From: a virus
Strand: one strand, 5' to 3'
Virus record (IMG/VR): IMGVR_UViG_3300027759_004167
Coordinates: 1 to 38,621 of that record
Length of the DNA: 38,621 nt
Shown here: in pieces, positions 6,395-37,464 of the stretch
Numbering within the stretch: position 1 is the first letter of the stretch
Layout: each line of letters opens with the position of its first letter
Program-made: the position numbers and the translations under genes
The notes under the pieces: generated by a model
Database searches by the model: none
Seen by the model: the letters and a program-made list of their open reading frames with translations, nothing else
Told to the model about the DNA's origin: nothing

Positions 6395-6395
6395 C

Positions 6396-6653: not shown

Positions 6654-6654
6654 A

Positions 6655-6921
6655 CTAATTTATTTTAACATTAATTATTTGTGTTTGACGAATTGTTTGT
6701 TCAATTAATCTAACCTCATCAATCAATTGCATGGCCAAGTCTTTATTATGTAATGGTTGATTTGATACATCTATCCATTGTTTTTGTATAAATCCCGGTA
6801 CCTTTTTCCATGTCTGTGGAAAGTAAACAGTATCGGTACCAACAACTTTAATTTGTAACCTGTACTTTGGTTTTGCTTCAGCTACTGAACAAACCAACAA
6901 TAGTAATAGTAATTTTTTCAT
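6655..6921 (-). CDS. Small secreted protein with signal peptide
   Basis: 88 residues. A typical Sec signal peptide (MKKLLLLLLVCSVAEA) with a cleavage site after AEA at 16; the Cys at 11 is not in a lipobox. The mature part begins KPKYRLQIKVV and is polar, ending in a helix and a short strand (IINVKIN). No family recognised. The ATG overlaps the upstream stop by four bases. It is one of four exported products encoded between 6.6 and 12.6 kb. Confidence 0.68.
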   Translation of the reverse strand: MKKLLLLLLVCSVAEAKPKYRLQIKVVGTDTVYFPQTWKKVPGFIQKQWIDVSNQPLHNKDLAMQLIDEVRLIEQTIRQTQIINVKIN

Positions 6922-9897: not shown

Positions 9898-10115
9898 TCT
9901 TTTTTCTTTTTAAAAGCATTCATTATTTCCATGGTGGTTACCACCAATATAATTAAGATTAATGGTATCCACAATGGTCCGAATACAAAATACCAAGATA
10001 TGTCTATTTGCCATTCTAACTTAATTATTACTAATATAATAAAAGTAAAGAATAAAAGAAAGCCTATTCCTTCTAATCCATCATTTTCTTCTGATAATTT
10101 TTTTCTATTTTCCAT
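9894..10115 (-). CDS. Two-helix membrane protein, 73 residues
   Basis: Charged N-terminus (MENRKKLSEENDG), two hydrophobic helices (about residues 16-31 and 42-64) and a FKKKKE end, giving a hairpin with both ends cytoplasmic. It sits between the HAD gene and the exported protein with overlapping or one-base junctions. Size and hairpin form fit a holin, but nothing specific supports it. Confidence 0.62.
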   Translation of the reverse strand: MENRKKLSEENDGLEGIGFLLFFTFIILVIIKLEWQIDISWYFVFGPLWIPLILIILVVTTMEIMNAFKKKKE

Positions 10116-19088: not shown

Positions 19089-20183
19089 TTAATTTGATAA
19101 CGGTGCTTTAATTTTTGGGTGTGATTCGTAACCTATTAGTTCAAAGCAATCCGGTCTATAGGATAGTATTATATCTCTAAATGTTTTTGGTGCCAAATTT
19201 TCTTTTACTTTTTCGTGCTGATACCAATTACGTTCTGTAATTTGTACCTTCGGTAATGAATATGGTTCTCTACTGATTTGTTCTTTAGCTTGTTCAATGT
19301 GGTTTTTATATAAATGCACATCTCCCAAATTGCCAATCAAATCTTCAGGCATCATATCAACTTCCTTCGCAATGATTTCAAGTAACAATCCATAAGATGC
19401 GATGTTAAACGGCAATCCCAAAAATGTATCTACGCTTCTTTGATTCCACATTAATGATATTGCTCGTCTCGGTACTGGATATAATTCATCTATTTCCTCG
19501 TGGTCAACTTTATAAAAATCAAAAGGTTCAAATAGTTCTTTATATGTTTTATATCCTAAATCCAATCGTTCTGCTATACTCAATTCTCTTGTATAAACTT
19601 GAAATCCGTAATGACAAGGAGGTAAAACCATTTGGTCTAACTCCGCCACATTCCAAGCATTTACCATCAATCTTCTACTATCTGGATTTGTTTTTAGGGA
19701 ATGAACTAATTGTAGGATTTGGTCATACCATAATGAACCTTTCTCATTACCATTCATATCCATCCAACCTTGCCATTGTCTCCATTGCTTACCATAGATT
19801 GGTCCTAAATCTCCCCATTGTTTTGCAAACTCATTATCGGTTTTGATGTACTTAATAAAGTTATCTTTTGAATATGTAAGTAGATTTAATTCATTTTGTT
19901 TTGATACATAATTCTTATACGCATCACCATCCCAAATGTGGCAATCGTAATCCAATAGGAATTTGATGTTAGTATCACCTCTTAAAAACCATAGGAGTTC
20001 TGTCACAATGGAATTCCAATGCATCTTTTTTGTAGTAAGTAATGGAAAACCTTCTGACATCTTATGACGAATCTGTCTACCGAATACAGATATAGTACCA
20101 GTACCGGTTCTATCATCTTTTTCAACTCCGTTATCTAAAATGTCCTGTAATAATTCTTGGTACCTACTATCGATTGTATTCAT
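19089..20183 (-). CDS. thyA: Thymidylate synthase
   Basis: Converts dUMP to dTMP with methylene-tetrahydrofolate. All ThyA blocks are visible: RTGTGT at 25-30, ELLWFLRGDTN at 62-72, GPIYGKQWR at 127-135, DSRRLMVNAWN, the active-site LPPCHYGFQ (C190), QRSVDTFLGLPFNIASY and GDVHLYKNH. At 364 residues it is about 100 longer than the E. coli enzyme. An insert of about 35 residues (from YTRELSIAERL to VPRRAIS) lies between the catalytic Cys and the RS.D block, and a shorter one near residue 90-120. Inserts at such sites occur in phage and some bacterial ThyA and need not affect activity. The 5' end overlaps the gene upstream by 17 bases. Confidence 0.96.
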   Translation of the reverse strand: MNTIDSRYQELLQDILDNGVEKDDRTGTGTISVFGRQIRHKMSEGFPLLTTKKMHWNSIVTELLWFLRGDTNIKFLLDYDCHIWDGDAYKNYVSKQNELNLLTYSKDNFIKYIKTDNEFAKQWGDLGPIYGKQWRQWQGWMDMNGNEKGSLWYDQILQLVHSLKTNPDSRRLMVNAWNVAELDQMVLPPCHYGFQVYTRELSIAERLDLGYKTYKELFEPFDFYKVDHEEIDELYPVPRRAISLMWNQRSVDTFLGLPFNIASYGLLLEIIAKEVDMMPEDLIGNLGDVHLYKNHIEQAKEQISREPYSLPKVQITERNWYQHEKVKENLAPKTFRDIILSYRPDCFELIGYESHPKIKAPLSN

Positions 20184-22940: not shown

Positions 22941-24299
22941 ATGAAGAAAAAAATATTATTACTATCAGATGATTTAAGGTCGACATCAGGTATTGCTACG
23001 ATGTCAAAGGAATTTGTATTGGGTACGGTGGATAGATACGATTGGGTTCAGTTAGGTGCTATGATAACCCATCCCGACCTTGGTAAAGTAATTGACCTAT
23101 GTGACGATGTAAAGAATAGAACCGGTGTACAAGATGCAAGTGTAAAGTTATATCCAAGCAACGGGTACGGTGATATGTTTACATTAAGAAAATTAATTGA
23201 AATTGAGAAGCCCGATGCCATCTTACACTTCACCGACCCACACTATTGGCAATGGTTATATGATAACGAACAAGAGATAAGACAAACTTGTCCAATTTTA
23301 TTCTATCACATTTGGGATAACTTACCCGACCCACAATACAATAGAGATTACTATGAAAGTTGTGATTGGTTAGGTTGTATCTCTAAGCAAACCTACGGGA
23401 TTGTTCATCGTGTTGGTAAAATGACCAATGAGATAACATATAAACCATTAGAAGATTGGCAAATAAGTTATGTTCCTCACGGAATTAATGAGAATTTGTT
23501 TAAGCCAATTGATAAAATATCCGAAGATGTGAATAACTTTATTCATGGTGATAAAAAATATGACTTTGTCTTATTCTATAACAATAGAAACATAAGAAGA
23601 AAACAACCTTCGGATGTAATCATGTCATATAAATTGTTCTGTGATAGTTTACCTAAAGATAAAGCTGAGAAGTGTTTGTTATTAATGCACACCACACCAA
23701 TTGATGAGAATGGTACTGACTTAGTGGTGGTAAAGAACACTTTATGTCCTGACTATGATGTTAAATTCACAGGTATTAAGTTGGAACAAGATAAACTAAA
23801 TGAATTCTATAACGCTGTTGATTGCACAATTAACATTGCAAACAATGAGGGATTTGGTTTAACTACTGCTGAAAGTATTATGGCGGGTACACCAATCATT
23901 GTGAATGTTACCGGTGGTTTACAAGACCAATGTGGATTTATGTATACTGCTGATGATTATATTGAGGTTGGCTCGTTACATAATAAGGAGAAACACAATT
24001 TTTCATTACACGGTGAATGGGTTATTCCTATTTGGTCATCATCACAAAACTTAAATGGTTCTGTGCCAACACCTTACATCTACGAAGATAGGGTTAATTT
24101 AAAAGATGTTTCAGATGCTATAGGTGAAATGTACAAATTGGGTAAAAAGAAAAGAAAAGCTAATGGACAAAAAGGAAGAGAATGGGCAATTAATAACTTG
24201 TCTTCTAAGGTGATGTGTGATTCAATGGGTGAAGGTATTGAAACCGCAATTAAAAACCATAAACCAAAACAAAAATATAATTTATACAAATTGTCATGA
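22941..24299 (+). CDS. GT-B glycosyltransferase (GT4-like)
   Basis: 452 residues. N-terminal Rossmann domain KKKILLLSDDLRSTSGIATM, inter-domain YVPHGINENLFKP at 177-189 and the C-terminal donor-binding block NNEGFGLTTAESIMAGTPII (EGFGLTTAE at 303-311), the E-x7-E motif of retaining GT4 enzymes. It transfers a sugar from a nucleotide donor, in the cytoplasm. A second, related enzyme follows with a four-base overlap. Donor and acceptor unknown. Confidence 0.85.
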   Translation: MKKKILLLSDDLRSTSGIATMSKEFVLGTVDRYDWVQLGAMITHPDLGKVIDLCDDVKNRTGVQDASVKLYPSNGYGDMFTLRKLIEIEKPDAILHFTDPHYWQWLYDNEQEIRQTCPILFYHIWDNLPDPQYNRDYYESCDWLGCISKQTYGIVHRVGKMTNEITYKPLEDWQISYVPHGINENLFKPIDKISEDVNNFIHGDKKYDFVLFYNNRNIRRKQPSDVIMSYKLFCDSLPKDKAEKCLLLMHTTPIDENGTDLVVVKNTLCPDYDVKFTGIKLEQDKLNEFYNAVDCTINIANNEGFGLTTAESIMAGTPIIVNVTGGLQDQCGFMYTADDYIEVGSLHNKEKHNFSLHGEWVIPIWSSSQNLNGSVPTPYIYEDRVNLKDVSDAIGEMYKLGKKKRKANGQKGREWAINNLSSKVMCDSMGEGIETAIKNHKPKQKYNLYKLS

Positions 24300-25543
24300 G
24301 TAAACCAAGTTTATTATTTAGAGGACCGGTAGAAACAAGGTCGGGGTACGGAAGTCATTCAAGAGATATATTAGAATCGTTACGTGCGATGGATATGTTT
24401 GAGATTGGTATTGATAGTTGTAATTGGGGTGTAACCCCTTTAACGGCATTGGAAGATGGTAATGAGTTCCACCAATGGATTAAGAAACGTAAAGTATTAT
24501 CAATTGATGCTCAACCCGATGTATATGTGTCAGTTACCATATCAAATGAATTTAGAAGAGTTGGTAAGTTTAATGTAGGAATCACTGCGGGGATTGAGAC
24601 TACCGTTGCGGGTAAGGATTTAATTGATGGTTGTAACAATATGGATTTAATTATTGTCCCATCTAACTTTACTAAAGATGTGTATTTTCAAACAGTTTAC
24701 AATGAAACTGAAAATGGTACCAATAGATTGATTAAACAACATAAGCTTGTTAAACCAATGGAGGTGTTGTTTGAAGGTGCTGATACTAATATATACAACG
24801 ATGTTGTTGATGATAGTTTTAATTTAGACATCAAAGAAGACTTTGCTTATCTATTTGTTGGTCACTGGTTAAAAGGTGACACAGGTCAAGATAGAAAAGA
24901 TGTGGGTATGCTAATCAAAACATTTGTTGAGACATTTAAAGATGATGAAAACAAACCAGCTTTGGTCTTAAAAACATCGGCAGGTGCATTCTCAGTTAAA
25001 GATAGGGAGCTAATCCGTAAGAAGATTAAGTCTATTGTTGGTGGGACAAATGTACCCATTTATTTATTGTACGGTGACTTAACAGATAATGAAATGAATT
25101 CATTGTACAATCATCCTAAGATTAAAGCTATGGTTAGTTTAACTAAGGGTGAGGGATTTGGTAGACCATTGTTAGAATTTACAATGACAGGTAAACCGGT
25201 GATAGCGTCTAATTGGTCAGGTCACAAAGACTTCTTACCATTAGATAGAGCCGTAATGGTCGGTGGGACGTTAACTGATGTTCATGATAGTGCGGTCGAT
25301 AAGTTTGTATTAAAAAATGCAAAATGGTTTACTGCAAATTATAATGAAGCATCCGCTATTATGAAATTGGTAAGAGATGAGTATGATTCTTTTAAAACAA
25401 AGTCTGAAGAATTAAAAGAAATTAATAAAAACAATTTTAGTATGGATATGATGACTAAGAAGTTAGAAACTATCTTGTCGCCATATATTCAAAGACCTGA
25501 ACGTGTTGAACTAAAATTACCAAAGTTAAACAAGATTGGATAA
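24296..25543 (+). CDS. GT-B glycosyltransferase (GT4-like), second copy
   Basis: 415 residues. Starts MSKPSLLFRGPVETRSGYG (a G-rich acceptor-side loop), has FVGHWLKGDTGQDRKDV and the donor motif KGEGFGRPLLEFTMTGKPVI (EGFGRPLLE at 286-294). It shares the fold with its neighbour but not close identity. Overlaps the next gene by one base (TAATG). It may act with the first in building the glycan. Confidence 0.86.
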   Translation: MSKPSLLFRGPVETRSGYGSHSRDILESLRAMDMFEIGIDSCNWGVTPLTALEDGNEFHQWIKKRKVLSIDAQPDVYVSVTISNEFRRVGKFNVGITAGIETTVAGKDLIDGCNNMDLIIVPSNFTKDVYFQTVYNETENGTNRLIKQHKLVKPMEVLFEGADTNIYNDVVDDSFNLDIKEDFAYLFVGHWLKGDTGQDRKDVGMLIKTFVETFKDDENKPALVLKTSAGAFSVKDRELIRKKIKSIVGGTNVPIYLLYGDLTDNEMNSLYNHPKIKAMVSLTKGEGFGRPLLEFTMTGKPVIASNWSGHKDFLPLDRAVMVGGTLTDVHDSAVDKFVLKNAKWFTANYNEASAIMKLVRDEYDSFKTKSEELKEINKNNFSMDMMTKKLETILSPYIQRPERVELKLPKLNKIG

Positions 25544-25791
25544 TGAAAGATTTCAAATTTTTTAAAAATAACGATGCACAATTAAGTTTTGGGAATTGTT
25601 TATTTGCCATTCAACCTCAAATAAGATATGATAACGTTGAGTTTTGTTTTCAATTTGATAATGAGGAACCAACCGTTTTTGCAAACGGAACCGAAGAAAT
25701 GAGTATTAGAATAGAACCAACGAGTGGTGGTAATATCACATTTACCGCTAATGATAAACAGTTTACAATATTTGCAAGAGAAAGACAATGA
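25543..25791 (+). CDS. FKFF-tag protein, 82 residues
   Basis: Starts MKDFKFFKNNDAQLSF, the FKFF tag. The rest is a small beta domain: NVEFCFQFDNEEPTVFANGT then EEMSIRIEPTSGGNITFTAN and KQFTIFARERQ, reminiscent of an immunoglobulin-like or carbohydrate-binding sandwich. Overlaps by one base upstream and by four bases with another tag gene downstream. It is embedded within the glycosyltransferase run. Confidence 0.7.
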   Translation: MKDFKFFKNNDAQLSFGNCLFAIQPQIRYDNVEFCFQFDNEEPTVFANGTEEMSIRIEPTSGGNITFTANDKQFTIFARERQ

Positions 25792-26141
25792 GAGAGTTTA
25801 AATTTTTCCACGGAATAATACGTCATGGACTTACCGGAATTTTAGAGCCTGAATTAAATTACAATTTAAATCTTTATGATGAAATTACTGAGGCACTTGG
25901 TAATGAAATCAGACACGAAATTGATAGACAAATAATAGATAATCTAACAAGAAACTATCCGTTAACGTCAGCCGGAACAACAATAACTTCGTTACCGTTA
26001 ACCGGAACAATAAATACTACTAATGGTTTTACGCTAACAACAACAAACACAGGTACTGCCGATTACACAACATCAACAAATACCCACAATTTACATTATT
26101 TAAACCATTTTATAAATTTGGGAGGAGGTAGTCGTGCATAG
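25788..26141 (+). CDS. FKFF-tag protein, Thr/Asn-rich, 117 residues
   Basis: Starts MREFKFFHGIIRHGLTG. The N-terminal half is polar and helical (YDEITEALGNEIRHEIDRQI), the rest is a Thr/Asn/Leu-rich beta stretch (TTNGFTLTTTNTGTADYTTS) ending HFINLGGGSRA. The Thr-rich repeat-like end suggests an adhesin or fibre segment. Its last codons carry GGAGGAGG, which also serves as a ribosome site for the overlapping next gene. Confidence 0.68.
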   Translation: MREFKFFHGIIRHGLTGILEPELNYNLNLYDEITEALGNEIRHEIDRQIIDNLTRNYPLTSAGTTITSLPLTGTINTTNGFTLTTTNTGTADYTTSTNTHNLHYLNHFINLGGGSRA

Positions 26142-26451
26142 ATGTGATTGGCATATGTGGCAACCAGAAGGATGGGAATTCTGTTGGAGATGTGAAGAAT
26201 TAAATAGAATAGAAAATAAGAAAAAAAAATATAAAAATAAAATGGAAACTTTAGATATTAAACATTTTAAAAATCAACTAGATAAAGGAACAATTCTACC
26301 TGAAAAACTTTTTTATATGTTACAGGAGGAATTGGAGAATGGGGAAACTAAAATGACATTAATTGGTCACGATGTTGAGGATGATTTACCCAATTATCAA
26401 TTTATTAACTTCGATTTAAATTTATTAATGTTCCCAATAGTTAAAAAATAA
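26134..26451 (+). CDS. Small Cys/Trp-rich protein, GTG start
   Basis: 105 residues. The GTG at 26134 follows GGAGGAGGTAGTC, a perfect Shine-Dalgarno at five bases, and is preferred. It starts MHRCDWHMWQPEGWEFCWRC (three Cys, four Trp; zinc-knuckle-like), then a Lys-rich linker and a second part METLDIKHFKNQLDKGTILP. Internal METLDIKH could be a separate start. Function unknown; lies between tag proteins and a glycosyltransferase. Confidence 0.6.
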   Translation: MHRCDWHMWQPEGWEFCWRCEELNRIENKKKKYKNKMETLDIKHFKNQLDKGTILPEKLFYMLQEELENGETKMTLIGHDVEDDLPNYQFINFDLNLLMFPIVKK

Positions 26452-26453
26452 TT

Positions 26454-27074
26454 ATGAAAATAAGTTTTGCTATTACTGTGTGTAATGAATTAGAAGAAAT
26501 AAAAAAATTGGTTTCATTTATTTTAGAACACAAAAGACCTCAAGACGAAATTGTGGTTCTATATGACGATAAGAATGGAAATTCTGAAGTCTTAGATTTT
26601 CTATTACCTTACAACATTAAACCAAATGTCCAAACATGGAGAGGTTTTGATTTTAAGGATAACTTTGCCGATTGGAAGAATAAACTTACTGAGTATTGTA
26701 CGGGTGATTACATTGTTCAACTTGATGCCGATGAAATGATTAGCAAGTACATTGTACAGAATATTAATGTAATTATTGGTATGAATCCTGATGTTGATTT
26801 GTTTTTTCTACCAAGAATTAATACTGTCGAGGGATTAACTCAAGAACATATTGATAAATGGGGATGGCATTTAAATGAAAAGGGACACATCAACTTTCCC
26901 GATTTTCAGGGACGTGTGTTTAAAAAGGATTTAAGATGGTCGGGTAAGGTACATGAAAAAATAATTGGTTCAAAAAAATATTCATTATTACCAGAAGATT
27001 TCGTATATTGCATTCAACATTATAAGACAATTGAACGTCAAGAAAAACAAAATAACTATTACGACACAATATGA
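26454..27074 (+). CDS. GT2-family glycosyltransferase, short
   Basis: 206 residues. GT-A fold: MKISFAITVCNELEEIKKLV start, VLYDDKNGN and the metal-binding DAD in VQLDADEMI (91-93), a following acceptor loop RWSGKVHEK. Inverting GT2 enzymes use a nucleotide-sugar donor. Short C-terminus; ends in a four-base overlap with the next gene. Donor unknown. Confidence 0.82.
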   Translation: MKISFAITVCNELEEIKKLVSFILEHKRPQDEIVVLYDDKNGNSEVLDFLLPYNIKPNVQTWRGFDFKDNFADWKNKLTEYCTGDYIVQLDADEMISKYIVQNINVIIGMNPDVDLFFLPRINTVEGLTQEHIDKWGWHLNEKGHINFPDFQGRVFKKDLRWSGKVHEKIIGSKKYSLLPEDFVYCIQHYKTIERQEKQNNYYDTI

Positions 27075-27682
27075 CATATAATTATCCACCACATTTCAAA
27101 TATCCCGATACCGAAAAGGTCTATTTTTCAGACCATATACAATTATGGGAAAATATTTTAGGGGTTTTAAAAACAAAACCTAATGTTTGTTTGGAAATAG
27201 GTGCGTTATATGGCGGTTCGTCCGTTTACATACTTGAGGAGTTCTGTAAAATGGAAGGTTCACATCATTATATAATGGATATCAATTCAAATGAATACAT
27301 AGAGATTAACATATACCCTTATGGTGATAAAGTAACATACCTAAAAGGTGAATCTGCTGATAGTTTTAAACGATTTGAACATTTAAGTGAGACAAAAGAA
27401 TTTTTAGATTTTGTTTATATCGATGGTAATCATATGTCAAAGTATGTTTTAGAAGATGCCGTTAATGCTTTCTATTGTTTAAAAAATGGTGGGGTAATGA
27501 TATTTGATGATTTTGGTGGTGGTTTAGAACAAGAATCACATATGCAAGTTAAAACAGCTGTGGATTCATTTATTAATTCATATCAAAAATATTTGAATGT
27601 GGTTTATGTGGGATATCAATTGATAATACAAAAAATAGAATATATTAATCAAGAAGAATTAAAAGGAAATTATTATAAATAA
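27071..27682 (+). CDS. Class I SAM methyltransferase (Methyltransf_24)
   Basis: 203 residues. Motif I LEIGALYGGSS at 41-51, then DFVYIDGNHMSKYVLEDAVN and GGVMIFDDF, the pattern of the Methyltransf_24 family that often O-methylates sugars in glycan clusters. Lies before the aminotransferase with a 41-base AT-rich gap, the largest gap in the plus-strand cluster, which may hold a promoter (TAACTTTTAT is seen, no exact consensus). Confidence 0.8.
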   Translation: MTYNYPPHFKYPDTEKVYFSDHIQLWENILGVLKTKPNVCLEIGALYGGSSVYILEEFCKMEGSHHYIMDINSNEYIEINIYPYGDKVTYLKGESADSFKRFEHLSETKEFLDFVYIDGNHMSKYVLEDAVNAFYCLKNGGVMIFDDFGGGLEQESHMQVKTAVDSFINSYQKYLNVVYVGYQLIIQKIEYINQEELKGNYYK

Positions 27683-27723
27683 AATTACAGATAAAACTAA
27701 ATAACTTTTATAAAAAAAATAAA

Positions 27724-28905
27724 ATGAAAAAAGAGATTCCATTATTTAAGGTTTTTATGGCCGATACTGCAGCAGAAAAAGTTGCAAAAGTATTAAACAG
27801 CGGATTTATTGGACAAGGTCCCGTTGTTAATGAATTTGAAAATACGCTTAGTCAATATTTTCAACATCCATATATCTCGACATTAAATGCCGCAACATCT
27901 GCGGAACATTTAGCGTTACATCTAATTAAAAAACCATTTACGTTTACTAAAGTGGACGGTTACGGAATTAGAGAGAACGTTTGGGATGGTATGAAGGATG
28001 GTGATGAAGTATTAACAACTGCACTTACTTGTACTGCAACTAATTGGCCTATACTAGCCAATAATTTCAAAATCAAATGGGTTGACATTGACCCTAATAC
28101 TTTAAACATGGACTTAGATGATTTGGAAAGAAAGATTGGTCCTAAAACAAGAGCGATTATGGTTGTTCACTGGGGTGGTTATCCGGTTGATTTAGATAGA
28201 CTTAGACAAATACAAGAGAAGTCTTTACGTATGTACGGATTCAAACCCGCCGTGATTGAAGATTGTGCACATGCAATGGGTAGTAAGTACAAAGGTAAGT
28301 TGATTGGTACTCATGGTAACATTTGTACATTCTCTTTACAAGCCATTAAACACATTACTTCTGTAGATGGTGGATTGTTATTCTTACCACACGAGGAATT
28401 GAATAGAAGAGCCCGTCTATTAAGATGGTATGGTATTGATAGGGATTCACCAAAAAAGGATTTTAGATGTGAGTCGGATGTTGAAGAGTGGGGATTTAAG
28501 TTTCATATGAATGATGTGAACGCAGCAATTGGATTGGAGAATTTTAAACATGTGGACACTATTGTTGGTAAACATAAATCCAACGCCAAGTACTATGATG
28601 ATAATTTAAAAAATGTACCGGGTCTAACATTATTAGAAAGGAACCCCGACATGGAAAGTGCGTTTTGGATTTATTCAATACTTGTTGAAAGAAAAGGTGA
28701 CTTTATGAAATATATGAAGGAATGTGGAATTGCGGTTTCTCAAGTACACGAGAGAAACGATATTCATACTTGTGTTAAAGAATATCGTTCAATGTTACCA
28801 AATTTAGATAAAACTATTGGTCGAGTAATTTCAATACCTATTGGTTGGTGGTTAAGTGATGAGGATAAAAAATACATTGTAGATTGTATAAAGAAAGGAT
28901 GGTAA
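27724..28905 (+). CDS. DegT/DnrJ/EryC1/StrS sugar aminotransferase
   Basis: 393 residues. PLP-dependent transamination of a nucleotide-linked 3- or 4-keto sugar. Motifs: GFIGQGPVVNEFE, ALTCTATNW, VHWGGYPVDLDRL, PAVIEDCAHAMGSKYKG (D180 stacking on PLP) and the Schiff-base Lys in TFSLQAIKHITSVDGG (K209). Length is as usual for the family. It makes the amino sugar which the GNAT encoded at 33096 could acylate. No 4,6-dehydratase or nucleotidyltransferase is encoded in this window; it would come from the host or the neighbouring sequence. Confidence 0.92.
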   Translation: MKKEIPLFKVFMADTAAEKVAKVLNSGFIGQGPVVNEFENTLSQYFQHPYISTLNAATSAEHLALHLIKKPFTFTKVDGYGIRENVWDGMKDGDEVLTTALTCTATNWPILANNFKIKWVDIDPNTLNMDLDDLERKIGPKTRAIMVVHWGGYPVDLDRLRQIQEKSLRMYGFKPAVIEDCAHAMGSKYKGKLIGTHGNICTFSLQAIKHITSVDGGLLFLPHEELNRRARLLRWYGIDRDSPKKDFRCESDVEEWGFKFHMNDVNAAIGLENFKHVDTIVGKHKSNAKYYDDNLKNVPGLTLLERNPDMESAFWIYSILVERKGDFMKYMKECGIAVSQVHERNDIHTCVKEYRSMLPNLDKTIGRVISIPIGWWLSDEDKKYIVDCIKKGW

Positions 28906-29870
28906 TGGATAAAATAATAGATGAATCTTTTTTAAAATCCGATGTAACGGAGTTTGCGTTAGGTTATGATAAAGTTAAGAACCATACTTGGTATGATAAT
29001 TTAAATTACATGGTTGATTTATCTAAAAAATATTTTAATGATGATGATTTTATAATGGATTACTCTTGTGGTACCGGTATATTTCCTGAAAGATTACTAA
29101 AATCAACTGTTAGTTGTCCAAGAATTTTGATGATGGACTCATCTCCAAAGTATCTTAAATTATCATATGATAAATTTGGTAATAATTACAAATTCTTTTT
29201 TAGATTAATGAAATATCTGAAAGAAGAGAATAGATTACAAACCATCGATGAGTCTATGGGTGAAGACTATAAAGAATTATTAAATGGTATTATATGTACC
29301 AATGCTATTCATCTTTACCCAACAATTTCTGACACAATAAAGTCTTGGAATAAGTTGTTGGTTAAGGGAGGTAAATTATTAATCAATTCGGGTAACATTT
29401 ATAATCCATTAATGGGTGCGGATACTAAATTGATTGACCAAACAGTAAATGAAATAGCTAAATTATCATTTGATATTGTAAAAGAGAATTCAAAATATTC
29501 CAAATATATTGATTTAATAGAAGATTTTGGATATATTAATAAACATAACACACTTAGAGATAAATATTTTTTACCTATTAGACCTATTAACTTTTATACA
29601 GATGAGTTAATTAAAAATAGATTTAAAATAGTTGAGGTTAAAACTATCGATATTGGTGCAAAGGTGGATGAATGGTTTGACTTTTTAAAGGTTTATCACG
29701 AAGGTGTTCTCGGTTGGATTGGGGGCGTTAATAAAATAACCGGTGTTGACCCAAAAGAAAATGAAGTTGAAGACAGGATTGATATAATAAAATTAGCTTT
29801 AAATAAAATGTTTAATAATAAAAACGATTTTAAAGCATGTTGGAATTACATAATTTGTGAAAAACTATGA
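28905..29870 (+). CDS. Class I SAM methyltransferase
   Basis: 321 residues. The ATG at 28905 overlaps the upstream stop (TAATG); a longer frame exists only with TTG. SAM motif I FIMDYSCGTGIFPERLL (DYSCGTG at 52-58), motif II LMMDSSPKYLKLS, later ICTNAIHLYPTISDTI and LLVKGGKLLINSGN. The C-terminal 120 residues are specific to this protein. Possibly an N- or O-methyltransferase of the amino sugar. Target not readable from sequence. Confidence 0.8.
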   Translation: MDKIIDESFLKSDVTEFALGYDKVKNHTWYDNLNYMVDLSKKYFNDDDFIMDYSCGTGIFPERLLKSTVSCPRILMMDSSPKYLKLSYDKFGNNYKFFFRLMKYLKEENRLQTIDESMGEDYKELLNGIICTNAIHLYPTISDTIKSWNKLLVKGGKLLINSGNIYNPLMGADTKLIDQTVNEIAKLSFDIVKENSKYSKYIDLIEDFGYINKHNTLRDKYFLPIRPINFYTDELIKNRFKIVEVKTIDIGAKVDEWFDFLKVYHEGVLGWIGGVNKITGVDPKENEVEDRIDIIKLALNKMFNNKNDFKACWNYIICEKL

Positions 29871-30616
29871 GTAAATGTGCTAAAATAATCTGTACTTATT
29901 TTGGTAAGCGAAGAGCCGGTACCTATAATAACCCAAATGATATGAAATCATTTTTTTTTAAGATGATGGAAAATGAAGTTAGTATTGATATGGGGATTGA
30001 AACTGATGTTATTTTAATTAACAATAATTGTGGGAATCCTACCATAAATGAAAGTATAAACAGTTTTAATAATAATAAAACAAAAAATGGTAAGATTATT
30101 GTTGAACATAGAGAAAACATCGGGGGTTCTTTTGGTGCATACTTTGATATGTTTAAAAAATATTTATCAAAATACGATTATTTCTTTTTTTGTGAAGATG
30201 ACCACATAATTTTTAAAGAAGGATACATGAAAGATTTTGTTGATTACTTGGATTCTGATGAAAAGATTGGTTATGTTTGTTTAGCTCCGATTACTCCATT
30301 AGGTCTTAGTGGTTATCCTATACATTCGGGTGGAGGTATTGGGTTAACATCAACCAAAAATTTTAATAAGGTCTACGGTGAAGGTTCAAAATGTAATTTT
30401 AGGGAAACTATGGAATTAGATATGAGTTATGAAAATTTACAAGGTTATGAAAGTAAGTTTAATGCCAATTTTATATTACACGGTGGACTTGAGTTAAAAA
30501 ATCACCCAAAATATTCTTGTATTCCTAAAAATTATGAAAACTTTGAAATTAACTATAAAAATTATTTAAATGAGGAGGTTTTACAAAAAGAGTTTATTTA
30601 TAATGTAGGAGAATAA
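29867..30616 (+). CDS. GT2-like glycosyltransferase
   Basis: 249 residues. Starts MSKCAKIICTYFGKRRAGTY, with the DxD-like EDD in YFFFCEDDHIIFK (110-112), and HRENIGGSFGAYFDMF before it, as in GT-A enzymes of phage and bacterial glycan clusters. Acceptor part follows (PLGLSGYPIHSGGGIG). Overlaps the methyltransferase by four bases. Confidence 0.76.
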   Translation: MSKCAKIICTYFGKRRAGTYNNPNDMKSFFFKMMENEVSIDMGIETDVILINNNCGNPTINESINSFNNNKTKNGKIIVEHRENIGGSFGAYFDMFKKYLSKYDYFFFCEDDHIIFKEGYMKDFVDYLDSDEKIGYVCLAPITPLGLSGYPIHSGGGIGLTSTKNFNKVYGEGSKCNFRETMELDMSYENLQGYESKFNANFILHGGLELKNHPKYSCIPKNYENFEINYKNYLNEEVLQKEFIYNVGE

Positions 30617-30626
30617 TATTAAAAAT

Positions 30627-31514
30627 ATGAAAAATTACACACAAAACTCAGAAGAAATGAATTGGCCGTGGGTTGAATCCCCGTTTTTTAGTGAATTATT
30701 AAAAAATCAGGATTTAACTGACGAAGAAAAAGAATTGGCCACCAAATATAACAAAGATGGTTACGTTGTTATTGATTTAGGATTAAGTGACGAAGAAATC
30801 GAACAATGTAAACTTGATGTTAATTTTTTAAATAATAAGGACGATACAAACATTCAAAACCCAAGATATCACTATTCACAAGGAAAAAGAATATTTGAAG
30901 CATGGAAAGAATGTGAATCTTTATTGACATTAGCGAATCATCCTAAAGTATATGACACCTTAAAAATGTTATATAAAAGGGAACCATATCCATTCCAAAC
31001 AATAACATTTAATTATGGTTCAAATCAACCGTTACATAGTGACACAATACATTTTGACTCAATGCCACAAAGATGGTTATCCGCAGTGTGGGTGGCTCTT
31101 GAAGATATGACCGAAAGTAATGGTTCCTTACTATACGTTCCTGGCTCACATAAATTACCCATATTTGATTTTTATGACTTAAAACTTAAATGTGCAGGTT
31201 TCGATGACCAATTTGATTCTTACGCGGAATATGAAGAATTTATTAGAAAGTTAGTTGAGGTCGGTAATTTAAAAACAGAATCGTTAATTTGTAAAAAGGG
31301 TCAAGCGCTTATTTGGTCTGCAAATTTAATACATGGTGGTGACATAATTAGAGACCCTAATAGTACTCGTTACTCTCAAGTAACCCATTACTATTATGAT
31401 GATTGTGATGTGTATCATTCCCCAATGTTTTCTGAAAGATGGAAAGGTAAATTCGCACATAAAGATTTAGTCTCAAAAAATATTAGAGACCATAAAATAG
31501 ATAAAAATGATTAA
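30627..31514 (+). CDS. PhyH-type 2-oxoglutarate/Fe(II) dioxygenase
   Basis: 295 residues. Phytanoyl-CoA-dioxygenase-like: iron ligands H137 and D139 in QPLHSDTIHFD, VWVALEDMTESNGSLLYVPG and SHKLP as the typical second block, distal H236 in WSANLIHGG and R248 in NSTRYS for 2-oxoglutarate. Known relatives hydroxylate lipid, amino-acid or sugar-linked substrates. Its position inside the acyl-amino-sugar run suggests that it oxidises the sugar or the acyl chain. The next gene starts eight bases inside it. Confidence 0.87.
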   Translation: MKNYTQNSEEMNWPWVESPFFSELLKNQDLTDEEKELATKYNKDGYVVIDLGLSDEEIEQCKLDVNFLNNKDDTNIQNPRYHYSQGKRIFEAWKECESLLTLANHPKVYDTLKMLYKREPYPFQTITFNYGSNQPLHSDTIHFDSMPQRWLSAVWVALEDMTESNGSLLYVPGSHKLPIFDFYDLKLKCAGFDDQFDSYAEYEEFIRKLVEVGNLKTESLICKKGQALIWSANLIHGGDIIRDPNSTRYSQVTHYYYDDCDVYHSPMFSERWKGKFAHKDLVSKNIRDHKIDKND

Positions 31515-32445
31515 AGTAAATAATGTTGGTATTATTGGAATTGGTTCATATTTTCCTGAGAAAATATTAACAAATGAAGATATTGATTTATTAGGGATTG
31601 GAACCGATTCATCTTGGACTAAAGAAAAATTAGGTATCGAAGAAAGAAGAGTTGTTGTGGATGAGAACCCATCGGATTTAGCATATCACGCATCAATTGC
31701 GGCAATTAAAGACGCAGGAATTGATAAGGAAGAAATTGATTTAATTATAGTTGCAACATCAAGCCCTGACAGAATATCCCCATCAACAGCCTGTATAATG
31801 GCTAAAAGATTAGACATTAAAAAACCCGCCTTTGATATAAATGCAGTATGTACGGGATTTGTATATGGTATTCAACTCGCAACTAATTTGATTAGTACCA
31901 AACAATATAAAAAAATATTATTAATTGGTGCCGAGGCTTATTCTAAAATAACAGATTGGAGTAAAAGAGATTGTGTGTTTTTTGGGGATGGTGCCGGCGC
32001 AATTATACTATCTGAAGTTAATGGTGGATGGATTAGTACGAATATATTTGGGGATGCAAATGGTAAGGAGGCGTTTACTTGTCACCATTCCGGTAAATTT
32101 AAAATGGACGGTAAAGCGGTTTATGAATTTGGGACAAATACATTACCTAAAACAATAAAAAATTCATTAGAGCAATTACAAATATCTAAAGAAGATGTTG
32201 CTTGGATAATTCCACATCAACCGAGCCATAGAATTTTATTTAAAACCGCTGAGATTCTTGATTTCCCTTTAGATAAAATGGTTTTTAATATGACAAAGTT
32301 TGGTAACACAGCAGGCGCTTCCATTCCAATGGCGTTAGATTCACTATATAAACAAAATAAAATTAATAGTGGAGATATTTTGGTTCTACCAGCAATCGGG
32401 TCTGGATGGACATTTGGTGTAAGTGTTATAAAATATATTAAATGA
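31507..32445 (+). CDS. 3-oxoacyl-ACP synthase III-like enzyme (KAS III)
   Basis: 312 residues, the length of FabH. Complete thiolase-fold triad: C115 in INAVCTGFVYG, H237 in IIPHQPSHR and N267 in KFGNTAGASIP; also FFGDGAGAIIL and the terminal GSGWTFG. FabH condenses an acyl-CoA with malonyl-ACP to a 3-oxoacyl-ACP. A phage copy amid sugar genes is unlikely to serve bulk fatty-acid synthesis; with the SDR next to it (four-base overlap) it could make a 3-hydroxybutyryl-type acyl group for an amino sugar. Inference. Confidence 0.93.
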   Translation: MIKVNNVGIIGIGSYFPEKILTNEDIDLLGIGTDSSWTKEKLGIEERRVVVDENPSDLAYHASIAAIKDAGIDKEEIDLIIVATSSPDRISPSTACIMAKRLDIKKPAFDINAVCTGFVYGIQLATNLISTKQYKKILLIGAEAYSKITDWSKRDCVFFGDGAGAIILSEVNGGWISTNIFGDANGKEAFTCHHSGKFKMDGKAVYEFGTNTLPKTIKNSLEQLQISKEDVAWIIPHQPSHRILFKTAEILDFPLDKMVFNMTKFGNTAGASIPMALDSLYKQNKINSGDILVLPAIGSGWTFGVSVIKYIK

Positions 32446-33086
32446 AAAAATTAATAGTATTCGGTGGTACAGGTGGATTGGGACAAAAACTAATACCATT
32501 TTTAGAAAAAAAATATTCAGTTACTTCAGTTGGTAGTAAAGACATTGATATCACATTATTTGGTGAGGTTCAAAAATACTTTAATGAAAATGAATTTGAT
32601 ATTGTATTAAACATGAGCGGAAGTAAATATGATGTGTTTTTAAGTAAAATTAAAGATAGTGACCAAGAAGATATAAATAAAATGATTGATGTTAATATAA
32701 AAGGAAATATCAACATAGTATCATCTTGTTTACCTAAAATGATTGAAAAGAAATATGGTAGAATTATTTCAATCTCATCTGTGTTTTCTGAACTTAATGT
32801 TCCAAAAAATTCAATCTATTGTGCATCAAAGGCGTTTGTTGATAGATTTATTAGTAACGCAAATAAAGAAAACGTGAAGTTTGGCATAACTTGTAACACT
32901 ATTCAATTAGGTTATTGGGATGGCGGTATGTGTTATAGAGTAGATGAAAAATATCAAGAGATGGCTAAGGAAAAAATTGGTTTAAAAAGGTGGGGTAAAA
33001 TTGAGGAATTATATAACACCATTGATTATATCGTAGAAAATGAGTATATTTCTGGTACAAATTTAAGAATAGACGGTGGACTATAA
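32442..33086 (+). CDS. Short-chain dehydrogenase/reductase (FabG-like)
   Basis: 214 residues. NAD(P)-binding GGTGGLG at 8-14, NMSGS (NAG-like), catalytic S112/S113 in ISISSVFSE, and YCASK (Y126, K130) with the closing GTNLRIDGGL. A classic SDR, smaller than typical FabG (about 245). Immediately follows the KAS III gene with a four-base overlap, as expected if it reduces the 3-oxo group. Alternatives are sugar epimerase-like roles. Confidence 0.88.
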   Translation: MKKLIVFGGTGGLGQKLIPFLEKKYSVTSVGSKDIDITLFGEVQKYFNENEFDIVLNMSGSKYDVFLSKIKDSDQEDINKMIDVNIKGNINIVSSCLPKMIEKKYGRIISISSVFSELNVPKNSIYCASKAFVDRFISNANKENVKFGITCNTIQLGYWDGGMCYRVDEKYQEMAKEKIGLKRWGKIEELYNTIDYIVENEYISGTNLRIDGGL

Positions 33087-33095
33087 ATAAATCTT

Positions 33096-33674
33096 ATGTA
33101 CATACACAAAAACGGAATTGCATTACGAAAATTAGAAAGAACGGACCTATCAAAATTAAAAGATTTAAAAAATGAATCTTGGTTTGGTACGCACAACATC
33201 ACATTATTAAATGATTATGAACAAGAAAAATGGTTTGAATCTTTAAATAGACACACCCATTTAATATTAATCGCAATTGATACTAAAACAAACAATGAAG
33301 TAGGATTATATAAGATACAGAACATTGATTGGTACAATAGGACCTACGATTCCTCTCATGATGTTTTTAAAGAATATAGAGGTCAAGGATTATCAAAACC
33401 GGTTCTTTGTGCCGGTACCGATTTTGCCTTTGAAGTTTTAAATATGAATAGGATTGACGGTGAGATATTAGAAAACAATGTTGCTAGTATAAAGTCGGCC
33501 GAATATGCGGGTTTTAAACATGAAGGTGTTAGAAGAAAATCAATCCATAAATGTGGTGAGTATTTGAATAGTATACATATTGGTATATTAAAAGAAGATT
33601 GGGTTAACTTAGAAAGAATAAAAGAATATGAGGGAATATGTAACATATCTTATCAACCTAAAAATGATTTATAA
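33096..33674 (+). CDS. GNAT acyltransferase (RimJ/RimL, PseH-like)
   Basis: 192 residues. ALRKLERTDLSKLKDLKNES start, EQEKWFESLNRH, the acyl-CoA loop EYRGQGLSKPV (R/Q-x-x-G-x-G type, 93-101) and NNVASIKSAEYAGFKHEGVR, the standard C-terminal strand-helix of the RimJ/RimL group. Such enzymes N-acylate amino sugars in glycan pathways (PseH is an example). It is the proposed step joining the acyl chain to the amino sugar. Confidence 0.84.
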   Translation: MYIHKNGIALRKLERTDLSKLKDLKNESWFGTHNITLLNDYEQEKWFESLNRHTHLILIAIDTKTNNEVGLYKIQNIDWYNRTYDSSHDVFKEYRGQGLSKPVLCAGTDFAFEVLNMNRIDGEILENNVASIKSAEYAGFKHEGVRRKSIHKCGEYLNSIHIGILKEDWVNLERIKEYEGICNISYQPKNDL

Positions 33675-33677
33675 ATT

Positions 33678-34424
33678 ATGAAACTTAACAAATTTTTAAT
33701 TGCAATGGTTTATTATGAAAGACCAAAAGTGTTAATAAATGCACTAAAATCTATATTAGATATTTCATATCCGGAGTTTGAAGTTCATTTAATTGACGAT
33801 GGTTCCACTAACAGAGCTGAACCAATTGTTAGAGATGTCTGTTCATCAATAATAGACAAGTTTAAGTTTAGTTATATTGAAAATACCATAGAACAAAAGA
33901 AAGAACAAGGTGGTAGTCTTCATGGACGATACTTAACTGACGCAATAAAGGAAAGTGATGCTGACCATGTCATTGTATTATGTGATGATGACGCAATTTA
34001 TCCTCATTTTTTAACTAAATTAAATTTACTAATAAATAAACCAGAAAATAAGGATAAAAATTATTTTTATCATAACATAGTTTTATATGACTGTCTAAGA
34101 GAACCATATACTAACGGTGTTGAAAGGGGTGATTTAAGTTACTTCACCAATCAATGGAAAGAACCAATAAACTGTTATTGTAAGGTTGATGGTTCTCAAG
34201 TAACTTATAATAGAAAAAAATTTGTTGAGGATGGGGTATTTTATCCCGCACCTCAAACATCGGGATTGGATGCCGCTTCATTTCAACAAATGTTTGATAA
34301 ATGGGGTTTAGCTGAATATAGTAAATTGATATCTCAAGTTAAATCTAATAATGAAGATAATTTAGTTTGGAAAGATATGGAAGCTGATAAGGATGTTATC
34401 TATAAAACTAAAGATATGAATTAA
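33678..34424 (+). CDS. GT2-family glycosyltransferase
   Basis: 248 residues. GT-A pattern: LNKFLIAMVYYERPKVLINA, EVHLIDDGSTNRAEPI (DD at 40-41) and VIVLCDDDAIYPH with the DDD at 103-105. Ends with SGLDAASFQQMFDKWG. One-base overlap with the next glycosyltransferase. Donor and acceptor unknown. Confidence 0.84.
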   Translation: MKLNKFLIAMVYYERPKVLINALKSILDISYPEFEVHLIDDGSTNRAEPIVRDVCSSIIDKFKFSYIENTIEQKKEQGGSLHGRYLTDAIKESDADHVIVLCDDDAIYPHFLTKLNLLINKPENKDKNYFYHNIVLYDCLREPYTNGVERGDLSYFTNQWKEPINCYCKVDGSQVTYNRKKFVEDGVFYPAPQTSGLDAASFQQMFDKWGLAEYSKLISQVKSNNEDNLVWKDMEADKDVIYKTKDMN

Positions 34425-35524
34425 TGAATATAACAATCGTACTTGCTGTTTACAACAACCTATCATTAACTAAAGAATGTTACAAACACATTCGTAGATT
34501 ATATCTCAATGCTCCAATCGTTATTAGTAGTGGTGGGTCAAATGATGGTACGTTAGAATGGTTAGAAGAAACATCTAACAATGATGAGTTTCTATCTTTT
34601 GTACACGAGTCTGAAAAAATAAACTTTTCAGAAAACTATAACCAAGGTATCAAGATTGTGGATACAGATAAGTTGGTTCTTATTCATAATGATATGGTTA
34701 TTGGTAAAGGATTCTTAGAAACGCTTGACCAACAACTGACTGAAGATACATTGTTATGCTACACCACTGTTGAACCGCCCATATTTGCTGGACATAATAG
34801 ACCCGGTAAGTTCATATTGGATTGTGGAATGTCTTTTGAGAATTTCAATATGAGCTTGTTCAATCAATACATTGATAGTGTGCAAAAGACCGGTAAGCTT
34901 TATGACGGTGGTTCATTCTTTATGTCAGGTTACAAATCATTATTTGAGGATGTTAATTACTTTGATGGGTTTAGTTTCTTCCCGTGTTTCTGTGAGGACG
35001 ATGACTTCTTAATAAGAACCAAACTAAAAGGATATAATATTAAAACAACTGAAGAAGCAATAACGTATCATTTCGTTTCTAAGACCTCAAGATTCAGTGA
35101 AGAGTACAAAGACACCACCAGACAAAATGAACTCAACAGCAACCGTAATTTCATACGCAAATGGGGTGTCCCATCCTACGTGTTCACCCTGATTCGTTAT
35201 TGGGAGGAGAAAAACTTTACATATAAAAATTATGACATTGGATTAACGCTATCCAACTCGTCTCAATTAGAAACACTAGAACCATTCTTTGATAAGATAT
35301 CAGTGAACACATCACCAGAAAACTATATCATGATGGAGCAATATAAAACTAATTACGATTTAAGAAGTAAGTTTAGTTTCATAGATAATGTTGATGTAAT
35401 GATTTACATAGATGGGAATATCAGTGAGCCTGAATTTGAAATTTTACAAAAGTTAAGATTTAGTTTGCCTGACTATGAAAAAGGAGTATATGAAACTGGT
35501 AGATTAAAGATTGAAATTAAATAA
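34424..35524 (+). CDS. GT2-family glycosyltransferase with C-terminal extension
   Basis: 366 residues. MNITIVLAVYNNLSLTKECY start, SSGGSNDGTLEWLEE and IHNDMVIG (HND at 88-90), then FFPCFCEDDDFLIRTKLKGY, the acceptor-side ED motif typical of GT2. After residue 265 comes an extra domain of about 100 residues (IGLTLSNSSQLETLEPFFDK) that is not part of the GT2 core. Codons are slightly richer in C/G than in the 29-33 kb genes. Its end overlaps the convergent minus-strand gene by eight bases. Confidence 0.85.
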   Translation: MNITIVLAVYNNLSLTKECYKHIRRLYLNAPIVISSGGSNDGTLEWLEETSNNDEFLSFVHESEKINFSENYNQGIKIVDTDKLVLIHNDMVIGKGFLETLDQQLTEDTLLCYTTVEPPIFAGHNRPGKFILDCGMSFENFNMSLFNQYIDSVQKTGKLYDGGSFFMSGYKSLFEDVNYFDGFSFFPCFCEDDDFLIRTKLKGYNIKTTEEAITYHFVSKTSRFSEEYKDTTRQNELNSNRNFIRKWGVPSYVFTLIRYWEEKNFTYKNYDIGLTLSNSSQLETLEPFFDKISVNTSPENYIMMEQYKTNYDLRSKFSFIDNVDVMIYIDGNISEPEFEILQKLRFSLPDYEKGVYETGRLKIEIK

Positions 35525-36119
35525 TAGTCATATTTTTTAATAACATTTTTTTTGTGATAAAAAATGGGTTCCAATTTTCACCATTCTGAATAAAATTTAA
35601 TTCGGCATTATACCTATCAGTCTTATCGACATTATCGGTGTTTATTGATTTTATGTACTTACCGGTCGCCCACCAAAAATTTCCACTATAAATGTCAATG
35701 CCATTATCTAATTGCTCCAACTGATAACCAAATGTGTTATATTCTTTAAGATTTCTTATAACTTCTACGTATTTGGTGATTAAATAATAATTTAAATGTT
35801 TCCTCCAATTTGATTCTAACTCATATAGACCGGTGTTTATTTTTGATGCACCCTTTGTGTGAAAATAAAAAATATAATCATCATCTTTGATATCGTCCTG
35901 TTGAATTAAATTAAGGGTTAAGAATTCATTTTCACCGTATTTTATTATGCTTGGGGATATTTTATCTAAAATATTATCATAATTGTATGATTCATCAGAA
36001 ACAGATAACCCCACGGTTAATTTGAATGGTTCTTCTATTTTATTTAATAATGTTAATTGTTCATCAATAATTTTTTCAACATCATCAACACCGTATACGT
36101 GATAGTATATCCTAATCAT
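35517..36119 (-). CDS. Glycosyltransferase-like protein (FHTKG type)
   Basis: 200 residues. MIRIYYHVYGVDDVEKIIDE start, DDDYIFYFHTKGASK, an SNWRKHLNYYLI segment and IYSGNFWWATGKYI, the conserved blocks of glycosyltransferase-like domains related to rhamnan-synthesis and large polysaccharide enzymes in bacteria and phages. First gene met when reading into the minus-strand tail, and last in its transcript; convergent with the previous cluster. Catalytic residues are not defined for me in this family. Confidence 0.72.
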   Translation of the reverse strand: MIRIYYHVYGVDDVEKIIDEQLTLLNKIEEPFKLTVGLSVSDESYNYDNILDKISPSIIKYGENEFLTLNLIQQDDIKDDDYIFYFHTKGASKINTGLYELESNWRKHLNYYLITKYVEVIRNLKEYNTFGYQLEQLDNGIDIYSGNFWWATGKYIKSINTDNVDKTDRYNAELNFIQNGENWNPFFITKKMLLKNMTII

Positions 36120-36877
36120 AATATCTTTTTGTTTTTACAAAAATCAAATAATTTATTAGCATATTCTTTGTTATGATTGGCGGTTGCATGTTTACCATCT
36201 ATTGAAAATTCTCTAAAGTTACCATACTCACCATCAAATCTATAATCATCCATTACACTATCATCATTCAAAAAAGAACCATTCCAAGTGTACGGTATTT
36301 TTTTATTTTGTAATAAATTTGTTATTAATAAGTGATTTTTATACCAATTTATTAAATCATTCTCATCGTGCGTTACTCTCGCAATTGCTTTATATTCTTC
36401 TTTTCCTTCTTTATCTTCTTCAAAATATCCCCAAGGGTTCATATGAAATGGTTCTAATTCTCCACCATATCTATAATATTCTTTTCTTGATGGATATGTG
36501 TACATAATGTTTACAAGATTTGGTCTAAATGTATCAACTAATGAAACTATACATCTTACTATATAATCATTACTCCTACCACCAAATCCTGCATTCAAAT
36601 CAACTCCTTTATCTATTAATCTTGAAAAATAATGAGGCCAAGTTTGATTATCAGATACACCAACTCCTTCGGTATGAGAACACCCAACTGATAAGATTCT
36701 AAATCCATCTTTATAAATTGAATCTCCCCTAAAACCCATTTCGTTATATGTGTAAACATTAGTTCCACTTTCATCTGAACCAGAGCCATTAAATGTTTGA
36801 TTTCTTCTTTCGGCCAAGTTCCACTTATAAGTAGCAACATCGAATCCGTCTTTTTTCCAATACTTTATAGATTTCAT
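36116..36877 (-). CDS. SGNH-fold hydrolase or acyltransferase
   Basis: 253 residues. Block I ILSVGCSHTEGVG with nucleophile S67, block III-like GFGGRSNDYIVR (N103) and block V IDGKHATANHNKEYA with D227 and H230. This is the SGNH/GDSL arrangement. Members remove or add acetyl groups on sugars. N-terminal 60 residues read as a beta lid. It is joined to its neighbours by four-base overlaps, so it belongs to the glycan unit of 38.6-35.5 kb. Confidence 0.82.
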   Translation of the reverse strand: MKSIKYWKKDGFDVATYKWNLAERRNQTFNGSGSDESGTNVYTYNEMGFRGDSIYKDGFRILSVGCSHTEGVGVSDNQTWPHYFSRLIDKGVDLNAGFGGRSNDYIVRCIVSLVDTFRPNLVNIMYTYPSRKEYYRYGGELEPFHMNPWGYFEEDKEGKEEYKAIARVTHDENDLINWYKNHLLITNLLQNKKIPYTWNGSFLNDDSVMDDYRFDGEYGNFREFSIDGKHATANHNKEYANKLFDFCKNKKIL

Positions 36878-37464
36878 AACATTATTTTTTTACCTTGTTG
36901 ATTTATATCTATCTCATTATTTATCAGTTTGTTATAGTAAATGTTTTGAATTTTAACTTGATTAAGTAAAAAGTTAATTTCTTTTGGATACATATCTTTT
37001 AACATTTCAAATAATTCTTCTTTTGGCCACCATTTCTTATATTTTTTAAAATTATATTCTTCTTGAATATATTCAATATTGTGTCCCAAATTTTTTAATA
37101 ATTCAGTTAAATTTTCTAATTTAACCACTTGAATATCTTCACCATATTTGTTTCTGTAATAGTACAAATATTCATAAAAAGGAAAACACCAATGTGTGGC
37201 ACCTATTGACCTTATAAACTCACCTATTTGATGGTAAAAATCATCTCTTTTACCAAATTCATTTATAAATCCGACAGTTTCCGTGTGAAGTGCGGTCACT
37301 AAATGACTCATGGGTTCTCTCAAAACTATGTACTTTACTTTTGGAAATCTTGAATACTGACCGTGGTTAAATTCAATTCTTTTATCTTCCCAAACTTTAT
37401 CCAAAAATCTACTACCACATTTTACAGGTGCCAATATTGTATTATCGTATATTTTTATAACCAT
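36874..37464 (-). CDS. Sulfotransferase-like protein
   Basis: 196 residues. TILAPVKCGSRFLDKVW near the start resembles the 5'-phosphosulfate loop (K/R-x-G-S/T), and VKYIVLREPMSHLVTAL contains the R...S 3'-phosphate block (R49, S53). This fits the PAPS-dependent sulfotransferase superfamily, used to sulfate sugars or proteins; the short length and weak motif spacing make this tentative. One-base and four-base overlaps to neighbours. Confidence 0.62.
   Translation of the reverse strand: MVIKIYDNTILAPVKCGSRFLDKVWEDKRIEFNHGQYSRFPKVKYIVLREPMSHLVTALHTETVGFINEFGKRDDFYHQIGEFIRSIGATHWCFPFYEYLYYYRNKYGEDIQVVKLENLTELLKNLGHNIEYIQEEYNFKKYKKWWPKEELFEMLKDMYPKEINFLLNQVKIQNIYYNKLINNEIDINQQGKKIML

Follow-up and report, generated by a model that had tools for sequence, protein, structure and literature searches.

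Why should a virus carry enzymes resembling those of fatty-acid synthesis among its sugar genes? The question is raised by IMG/VR record IMGVR_UViG_3300027759_004167, the whole of which (38,621 bases, probably part of a larger genome) was analysed and is called the window here. Its glycan island encodes a DegT-type sugar aminotransferase, a β-ketoacyl-acyl carrier protein synthase III (KAS III), a short-chain dehydrogenase/reductase (SDR) and a GNAT acyltransferase, which a first-pass annotation had read as a route to an acylated amino sugar. Glycosyltransferases and individual sugar genes are familiar in phages. Judged from its sequence, this virus very probably builds an unusual fatty-acid-like group that it joins to an amino sugar, and variants of the same pathway with exchanged parts occur in dozens of related viruses that have not been cultured.

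Four core enzymes and their conservation

All four enzymes named in the first-pass annotation were recovered as full-length family matches (Table 1). The match to PF01041 together with the pyridoxal phosphate (PLP) lysine K209 places the aminotransferase in the DegT/DnrJ/EryC1 family, and its nearest solved relatives are AtmS13 and CalS13 (PDB 4xau, 4zwv and 4zas; full-length, E 1e-112 to 1e-123). The NCBIfam equivalog cut-offs for PseC (217 of 423 bits) and PseH (25.7 of 93.1 bits) were not reached. The condensing enzyme is identified as a KAS III by a full-length match to the FabH profile NF006829 (310 bits, cut-off 249); it falls slightly below the cut-off of TIGR00747 (286 of 292 bits) and matches PDB 2ebd at E 8e-66. 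Its Cys-His-Asn triad is intact, as had been claimed, and C115, H237 and N267 are invariant across 11 diverse phage KAS III proteins with identities to that of the window down to 45%. Ser91 occupies what we take to be the position of the Phe87 gate in FabH; the aligned Aquifex enzyme has Phe there, and the phage KAS III proteins have Ser or Ala. A small gate residue is seen in FabH enzymes that accept longer primers.

The SDR has the YxxxK motif (Y126/K130) and the NAD(P) glycine motif GGTGGLG of a classical SDR. Its closest match is a 3-oxoacyl-acyl carrier protein (ACP) reductase, yet it scores far under the NCBIfam FabG equivalog cut-off and its substrate is therefore unproven. The acyltransferase exceeds the PF13302 cut-off and carries an RGQG acyl-CoA loop at residue 95, as expected of a GNAT. 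The PhyH-type oxygenase retains the metal set H137, D139 and H236, with Arg248 read from the sequence by position. The proteins are 79-98% identical to those of the relative L002, with dN/dS of 0.03-0.17, and KAS III, SDR and GNAT compared with L005 and L010 give dN/dS of 0.05-0.19, implying that the island enzymes are maintained under strong purifying selection.

Neighbourhoods of phage KAS III and the history of the modules

Searches of viral contigs with KAS III, SDR and GNAT yielded several dozen, and their open reading frames (ORFs) were annotated with profiles built from these loci; clustering of KAS III at 95% identity gave 43 clusters. An acyltransferase lies no more than two ORFs from KAS III in 38 of the 43, compared with 12% of the 851 other ORFs in the same loci. 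Within 6.5 kb of KAS III we found an acyltransferase in 40 clusters (35 hexapeptide, 5 GNAT), an aminotransferase in 39 and both in 38. Other neighbours are PhyH (26 clusters), GDP-mannose dehydratase (24) and SDR (24), the last directly adjoining KAS III in 20.

The larger class of loci combines KAS III, often SDR, a hexapeptide acyltransferase, PhyH, a mini-DegT of about 200 residues, a GDP-mannose 4,6-dehydratase and a small conserved protein, a gene set that would suit an N-acylated perosamine-type sugar. The smaller class, with a full-length DegT and a GNAT, accounts for five of the 43 clusters (the window, L002/L003, L004, L005 and L010). Acyltransferases of two unrelated folds, and aminotransferases of two types, partner the same KAS III-SDR pair. 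Wherever a GNAT-type locus extends as far as the GNAT, KAS III-SDR lies between DegT and GNAT, and in L010 the four genes are contiguous. In the window they follow one another on one strand in the order first described, with gaps in the island of -8 to +41 bases, but they are not contiguous, as a methyltransferase, a weakly GT2-like gene and PhyH intervene between DegT and KAS III.

Several components of these loci are unusual in themselves. The mini-DegT has 195-215 residues, compared with 360-400 in a normal DegT, and an invariant lysine; its fold, known from prediction only (AlphaFold pLDDT 90), is DegT-like, with AtmS13 and GDP-perosamine synthase among the structural matches. It occurs at L028:12053-12673, in L025 and L024 and at about 30 more loci, often adjoining the GDP-mannose dehydratase and acyltransferase, as well as in the cultured phage immuto (NC_055915, gp172) and in a cyanophage; PQ898602 (231862-232449) carries it too. 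The small conserved protein has 138 residues (L028:8638-9051 and homologues), is near KAS III in 26 of 43 clusters and has no Pfam match; it appears cupin-like by eye and is possibly a sugar isomerase or other small-molecule enzyme. In L005 the place that PhyH holds in the window, between DegT and KAS III, is taken by a formyltransferase (9342-9941); L005 also encodes a nucleotidyltransferase at 6006-6755.

The trees separate the histories of the two outer genes. All KAS-bearing loci form one clade in the GNAT tree (100/98), whereas in the DegT tree they are scattered and a single clade is rejected (AU p 3.4e-8). Identity between L005 and the window follows this division, being 80% for KAS III, 81% for SDR and 91% for GNAT but 64% for DegT and 45-57% for the outer glycosyltransferases. 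These patterns indicate that the GNAT is inherited together with KAS III-SDR, which is what use of their product by the GNAT would predict. Together with the neighbourhoods, in which KAS III is nearly always beside both an aminotransferase and an acyltransferase, this co-inheritance supports the original proposal of an aminotransferase, an acyl-maker and an acyltransferase acting jointly.

DegT-GNAT also occurs without KAS III and SDR on 13 contigs, adjacent in nearly all, and a 595-kb huge phage has DegT and GNAT as immediate neighbours; hence two modules were joined. Moreover, the KAS III proteins of GNAT-type loci branch from within those of hexapeptide-type loci, which implies that the acyl-maker moved between acyltransferases. 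The GNATs with and without KAS III are split almost completely by five positions (T54/K, C105/E, A111/G, G122/T and R146/K), and Y80 and T83 likewise occur only in the KAS class. These positions could reflect a change of acyl donor, although shared ancestry alone could also explain them.

No isolate phage with this KAS III was found in the isolate phage collection, where matches fall below 40% identity and appear to be of host origin (records of Listeria, Staphylococcus, Enterococcus and Helicobacter). The unannotated INPHARED OR84xxxx records of Listeria, Staphylococcus and Enterococcus 'phages' give KAS III matches that look like host chromosome contamination. A search for a bacterial source of KAS III among 395 class-mates of a Maribacter genome yielded only seven genomes that passed a strict cut-off, and in the five inspected, over short stretches, KAS III is not in a glycan cluster. 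The closest bacterial SDRs found are 46% identical to the phage SDR and lie in Flavobacteriales metagenome-assembled genomes (L034:9078-10648, L035 and L036), immediately following a transferase of the AAC(3) family (PF02522), which adds a third acyltransferase fold to those found with this SDR type. The cultured Flavobacterium phage immuto shares the GT-GT-GT2-DegT start of the island (DegT 57%) and has a mini-DegT and a weakly hexapeptide-like protein but no KAS III or matching SDR. From immuto and the Flavobacteriales SDRs we infer that the host phylum is Bacteroidota.

Proposed chemistry and its alternatives

Gene content, active-site residues, selection, neighbourhoods and co-inheritance of the GNAT make it likely that the island encodes a pathway for an N-acylated amino sugar. 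DegT would aminate a nucleoside diphosphate (NDP)-4-keto sugar supplied by the host, and KAS III would condense an acyl-CoA primer with malonyl on host ACP. The SDR would reduce the 3-oxo product to a 3-hydroxyacyl group, which the GNAT would transfer to the amino group of the sugar. PhyH probably hydroxylates the acyl chain or the sugar, the methyltransferases may cap the product, and the neighbouring glycosyltransferases would pass it to an acceptor on the phage or host surface. We infer that the group is a 3-hydroxyacyl, that the host supplies ACP and NDP-sugar and that the acceptor is on a surface; 3-hydroxybutyryl, as the simplest product, is a guess. The D-S/T-x O-glycosylation motifs in the window proteins are too few to bear on the acceptor. 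A 4-amino sugar is the best guess because DegT is closest to AtmS13 and CalS13, and AtmS13 is postulated to install the C-4 amine of an aminopentose (PMC10951976, a review), although both serve antibiotic aminopentose pathways in actinomycetes. The Ser or Ala at the gate makes a primer larger than that of 3-hydroxybutyryl possible, as with the 3,5-dihydroxyhexanoyl group of Flavobacterium psychrophilum, and the frequency of PhyH near KAS III suggests further hydroxylation.

The close analogy drawn at first pass with the viosamine island of Pseudomonas syringae (vioA, vioM, vioT, vioS, vioB, vioR and acp), whose product is N-(3-hydroxybutanoyl)-2-O-methylviosamine (PMC3927599), is supported at the level of activities. 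Aminotransferase, KAS III, 3-oxoacyl reductase, acyltransferase, methyltransferase and glycosyltransferase activities are common to both, but the viosamine island is chromosomal and has its own ACP, whereas the phage set has none and has an extra PhyH. The wfpC-wfpG genes of the F. psychrophilum O-antigen R1 are predicted to follow a type II fatty-acid-like route to 3,5-dihydroxyhexanoyl, giving 3,5-dihydroxyhexanoyl-Qui2NAc4N (PMC6519341). Here too KAS enzymes, a reductase and an acyltransferase are predicted to place a polyketide-like acyl group on a 4-amino sugar, and the bacterium belongs to the probable host phylum of these phages; the wfp set differs in its two KAS enzymes, its ACP, its PglD-type acyltransferase and its cellular O-antigen product. 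Giant viruses (Megavirinae) make N-acetyl viosamine for particle fibrils, likewise a virus-encoded 4-amino sugar with N-acylation, but these are eukaryotic viruses, the acyl group is acetyl, and the parts of that source used here mention no KAS III (PMC10117803). The phage version is set apart from these systems by the lack of ACP, the presence of PhyH and the swapping of acyltransferase folds.

Several observations weigh against this pathway. Each of the two bacterial precedents has an ACP of its own, but no ACP gene (PF00550) was found in 18 phage contigs including the window, while a control was positive in 11 of 14 genomes; the carrier would therefore have to be host ACP or CoA. Neither the sugar 4,6-dehydratase nor the nucleotidyltransferase that the first-pass annotation had suggested looking for nearby is encoded in the window, and close relatives of this class mostly lack them, so that the NDP-4-keto sugar would come from the host. 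The predicted structure of the GNAT is poor (pLDDT 64.6, with residues 118-165 below 50, from an alignment of 14 rows), so that its fixed differences cannot be mapped onto an acyl pocket. Shuffling often brings island genes together, and proximity by itself does not prove a single pathway. Finally, 19 of the 43 KAS III clusters have no SDR beside them, and SDR relatives occur without KAS III in L056 and the bacterial L034-L036; the SDR may therefore have another substrate.

The distribution of the SDR would fit a variant in which it acts on the sugar and KAS III hands a 3-oxoacyl group directly to the acyltransferase. We consider this rather improbable, given that the closest SDR match is a 3-oxoacyl-ACP reductase, that the SDR adjoins KAS III in 20 of the 43 clusters, and that VioR, likewise annotated as a 3-oxoacyl-ACP reductase, is required for modified viosamine in P. 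syringae (PMC3927599). Two independent pathways might instead share the island, DegT-GNAT making an N-acetyl amino sugar, as in phages that lack KAS III, and KAS III-SDR(-PhyH) an acyl group attached elsewhere, by O-acylation of a sugar or to a lipid. The 13 contigs with DegT-GNAT alone, and KAS III-SDR without DegT-GNAT in most loci, favour this arrangement, and the first-pass annotation had itself held that independent carriage in homologous phages would count against its proposal. Such independence is seen only in part: the two modules do occur apart, but where DegT-GNAT is missing KAS III-SDR has a different acyltransferase and a different aminotransferase as partners, a pattern that speaks for the proposed role. 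As the GNAT rather than DegT tracks KAS III-SDR in the trees, and KAS III-SDR sits between DegT and GNAT wherever the GNAT is reached, we hold two separate pathways to be unlikely.

KAS III and SDR could also be auxiliary metabolic genes, raising the output of host fatty-acid synthesis or altering membrane lipids, their position in the island being incidental. FabH and FabG are indeed the top family models, and the small gate resembles that of longer-primer FabH enzymes (in part a matter of general knowledge). The sugar-type acyltransferases and aminotransferases near almost every phage KAS III, and the lack of ACP in the 18 contigs searched, argue against it, and on the neighbourhood evidence we rated this explanation very low. 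An N-acylated amino sugar is thus our preferred product, and the first-pass interpretation is, overall, partly supported.

The island, its surroundings and wider meaning

The phage origin claimed for the window is supported by its endolysin, T4-type RNA ligase/tail-fibre attachment protein, thymidylate synthase and phosphoesterase genes, which point to a T4-like phage; no near-identical DNA was found among isolate phages. The island (22941-35524) comprises 16 consecutive plus-strand genes and includes, as first described, several glycosyltransferases, two methyltransferases and a PhyH-type oxygenase besides the four core enzymes.

Table 1. Annotated genes of the glycan island, in window coordinates.
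Feature	Position	Strand	Evidence and remarks
Glycosyltransferase, first gene of island	22941..24299	+	PHROG 2170; conserved in relatives
Glycosyltransferase	24296..25543	+	PHROG 2170
GT2-like glycosyltransferase	26454..27074	+	PF00535 2.6e-6; conserved in relatives
S-adenosylmethionine (SAM) methyltransferase, Methyltransf_24 / rhamnosyl O-methyltransferase-CmcI type	27071..27682	+	family match
DegT/DnrJ/EryC1 sugar aminotransferase	27724..28905	+	PF01041 E 5e-75, full-length; PLP Lys209
SAM methyltransferase	28899..29870	+	weak Methyltransf_23; ATG start inside TTG-started ORF 28884
Weakly GT2-like protein, possible glycosyltransferase	29867..30616	+	PF00535 E 0.006, below cut-off
PhyH-type Fe(II)/2-oxoglutarate oxygenase	30627..31514	+	H137, D139, H236; 8-base overlap with KAS III
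KAS III (FabH-type) condensing enzyme	31507..32445	+	C115-H237-N267; NCBIfam beta-ketoacyl-ACP synthase 3
Short SDR, FabG-like 3-oxoacyl reductase, 214 residues	32442..33086	+	PF13561 2e-24; Y126, K130
GNAT acyltransferase	33096..33674	+	PF13302 1e-10; clade found only with KAS III-SDR
GT2 glycosyltransferase	33678..34424	+	family match
GT2 glycosyltransferase, last plus-strand gene of island	34424..35524	+	family match

Outside the island, the thymidylate synthase (19089-20183, minus strand) has 364 residues but its alignment covers only about 280 profile positions, and it may contain an insertion. Two minus-strand proteins have no PHROG match; by eye, one (36116-36877) has a GCSHTEG motif reminiscent of SGNH hydrolases and the other (36874-37464) is possibly sulfotransferase-like.

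The phage acyl-amino-sugar pathway would be a viral version of chemistry known from bacterial surface sugars, and we found no report of a widespread phage gene set that appears to make its own acyl group and attach it to an amino sugar in the open-access literature, a scope that leaves out most subscription journals. We tentatively suggest, as a possibility short of an even chance, that phages of aquatic Bacteroidota and others exchange an acyl-making cassette (KAS III, often with SDR and PhyH) among unrelated N-acyltransferases. This could place new oxidised acyl groups on 4-amino sugars of virions or infected cells, a diversification of surface antigens comparable to O-antigen serotype switching. 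The paired GNAT clades, with and without KAS III, allow acyl-donor specificity to be tested directly. If the model is correct, phages could construct surface chemistry perhaps unavailable to the host, with relevance to adsorption, superinfection and virion recognition.

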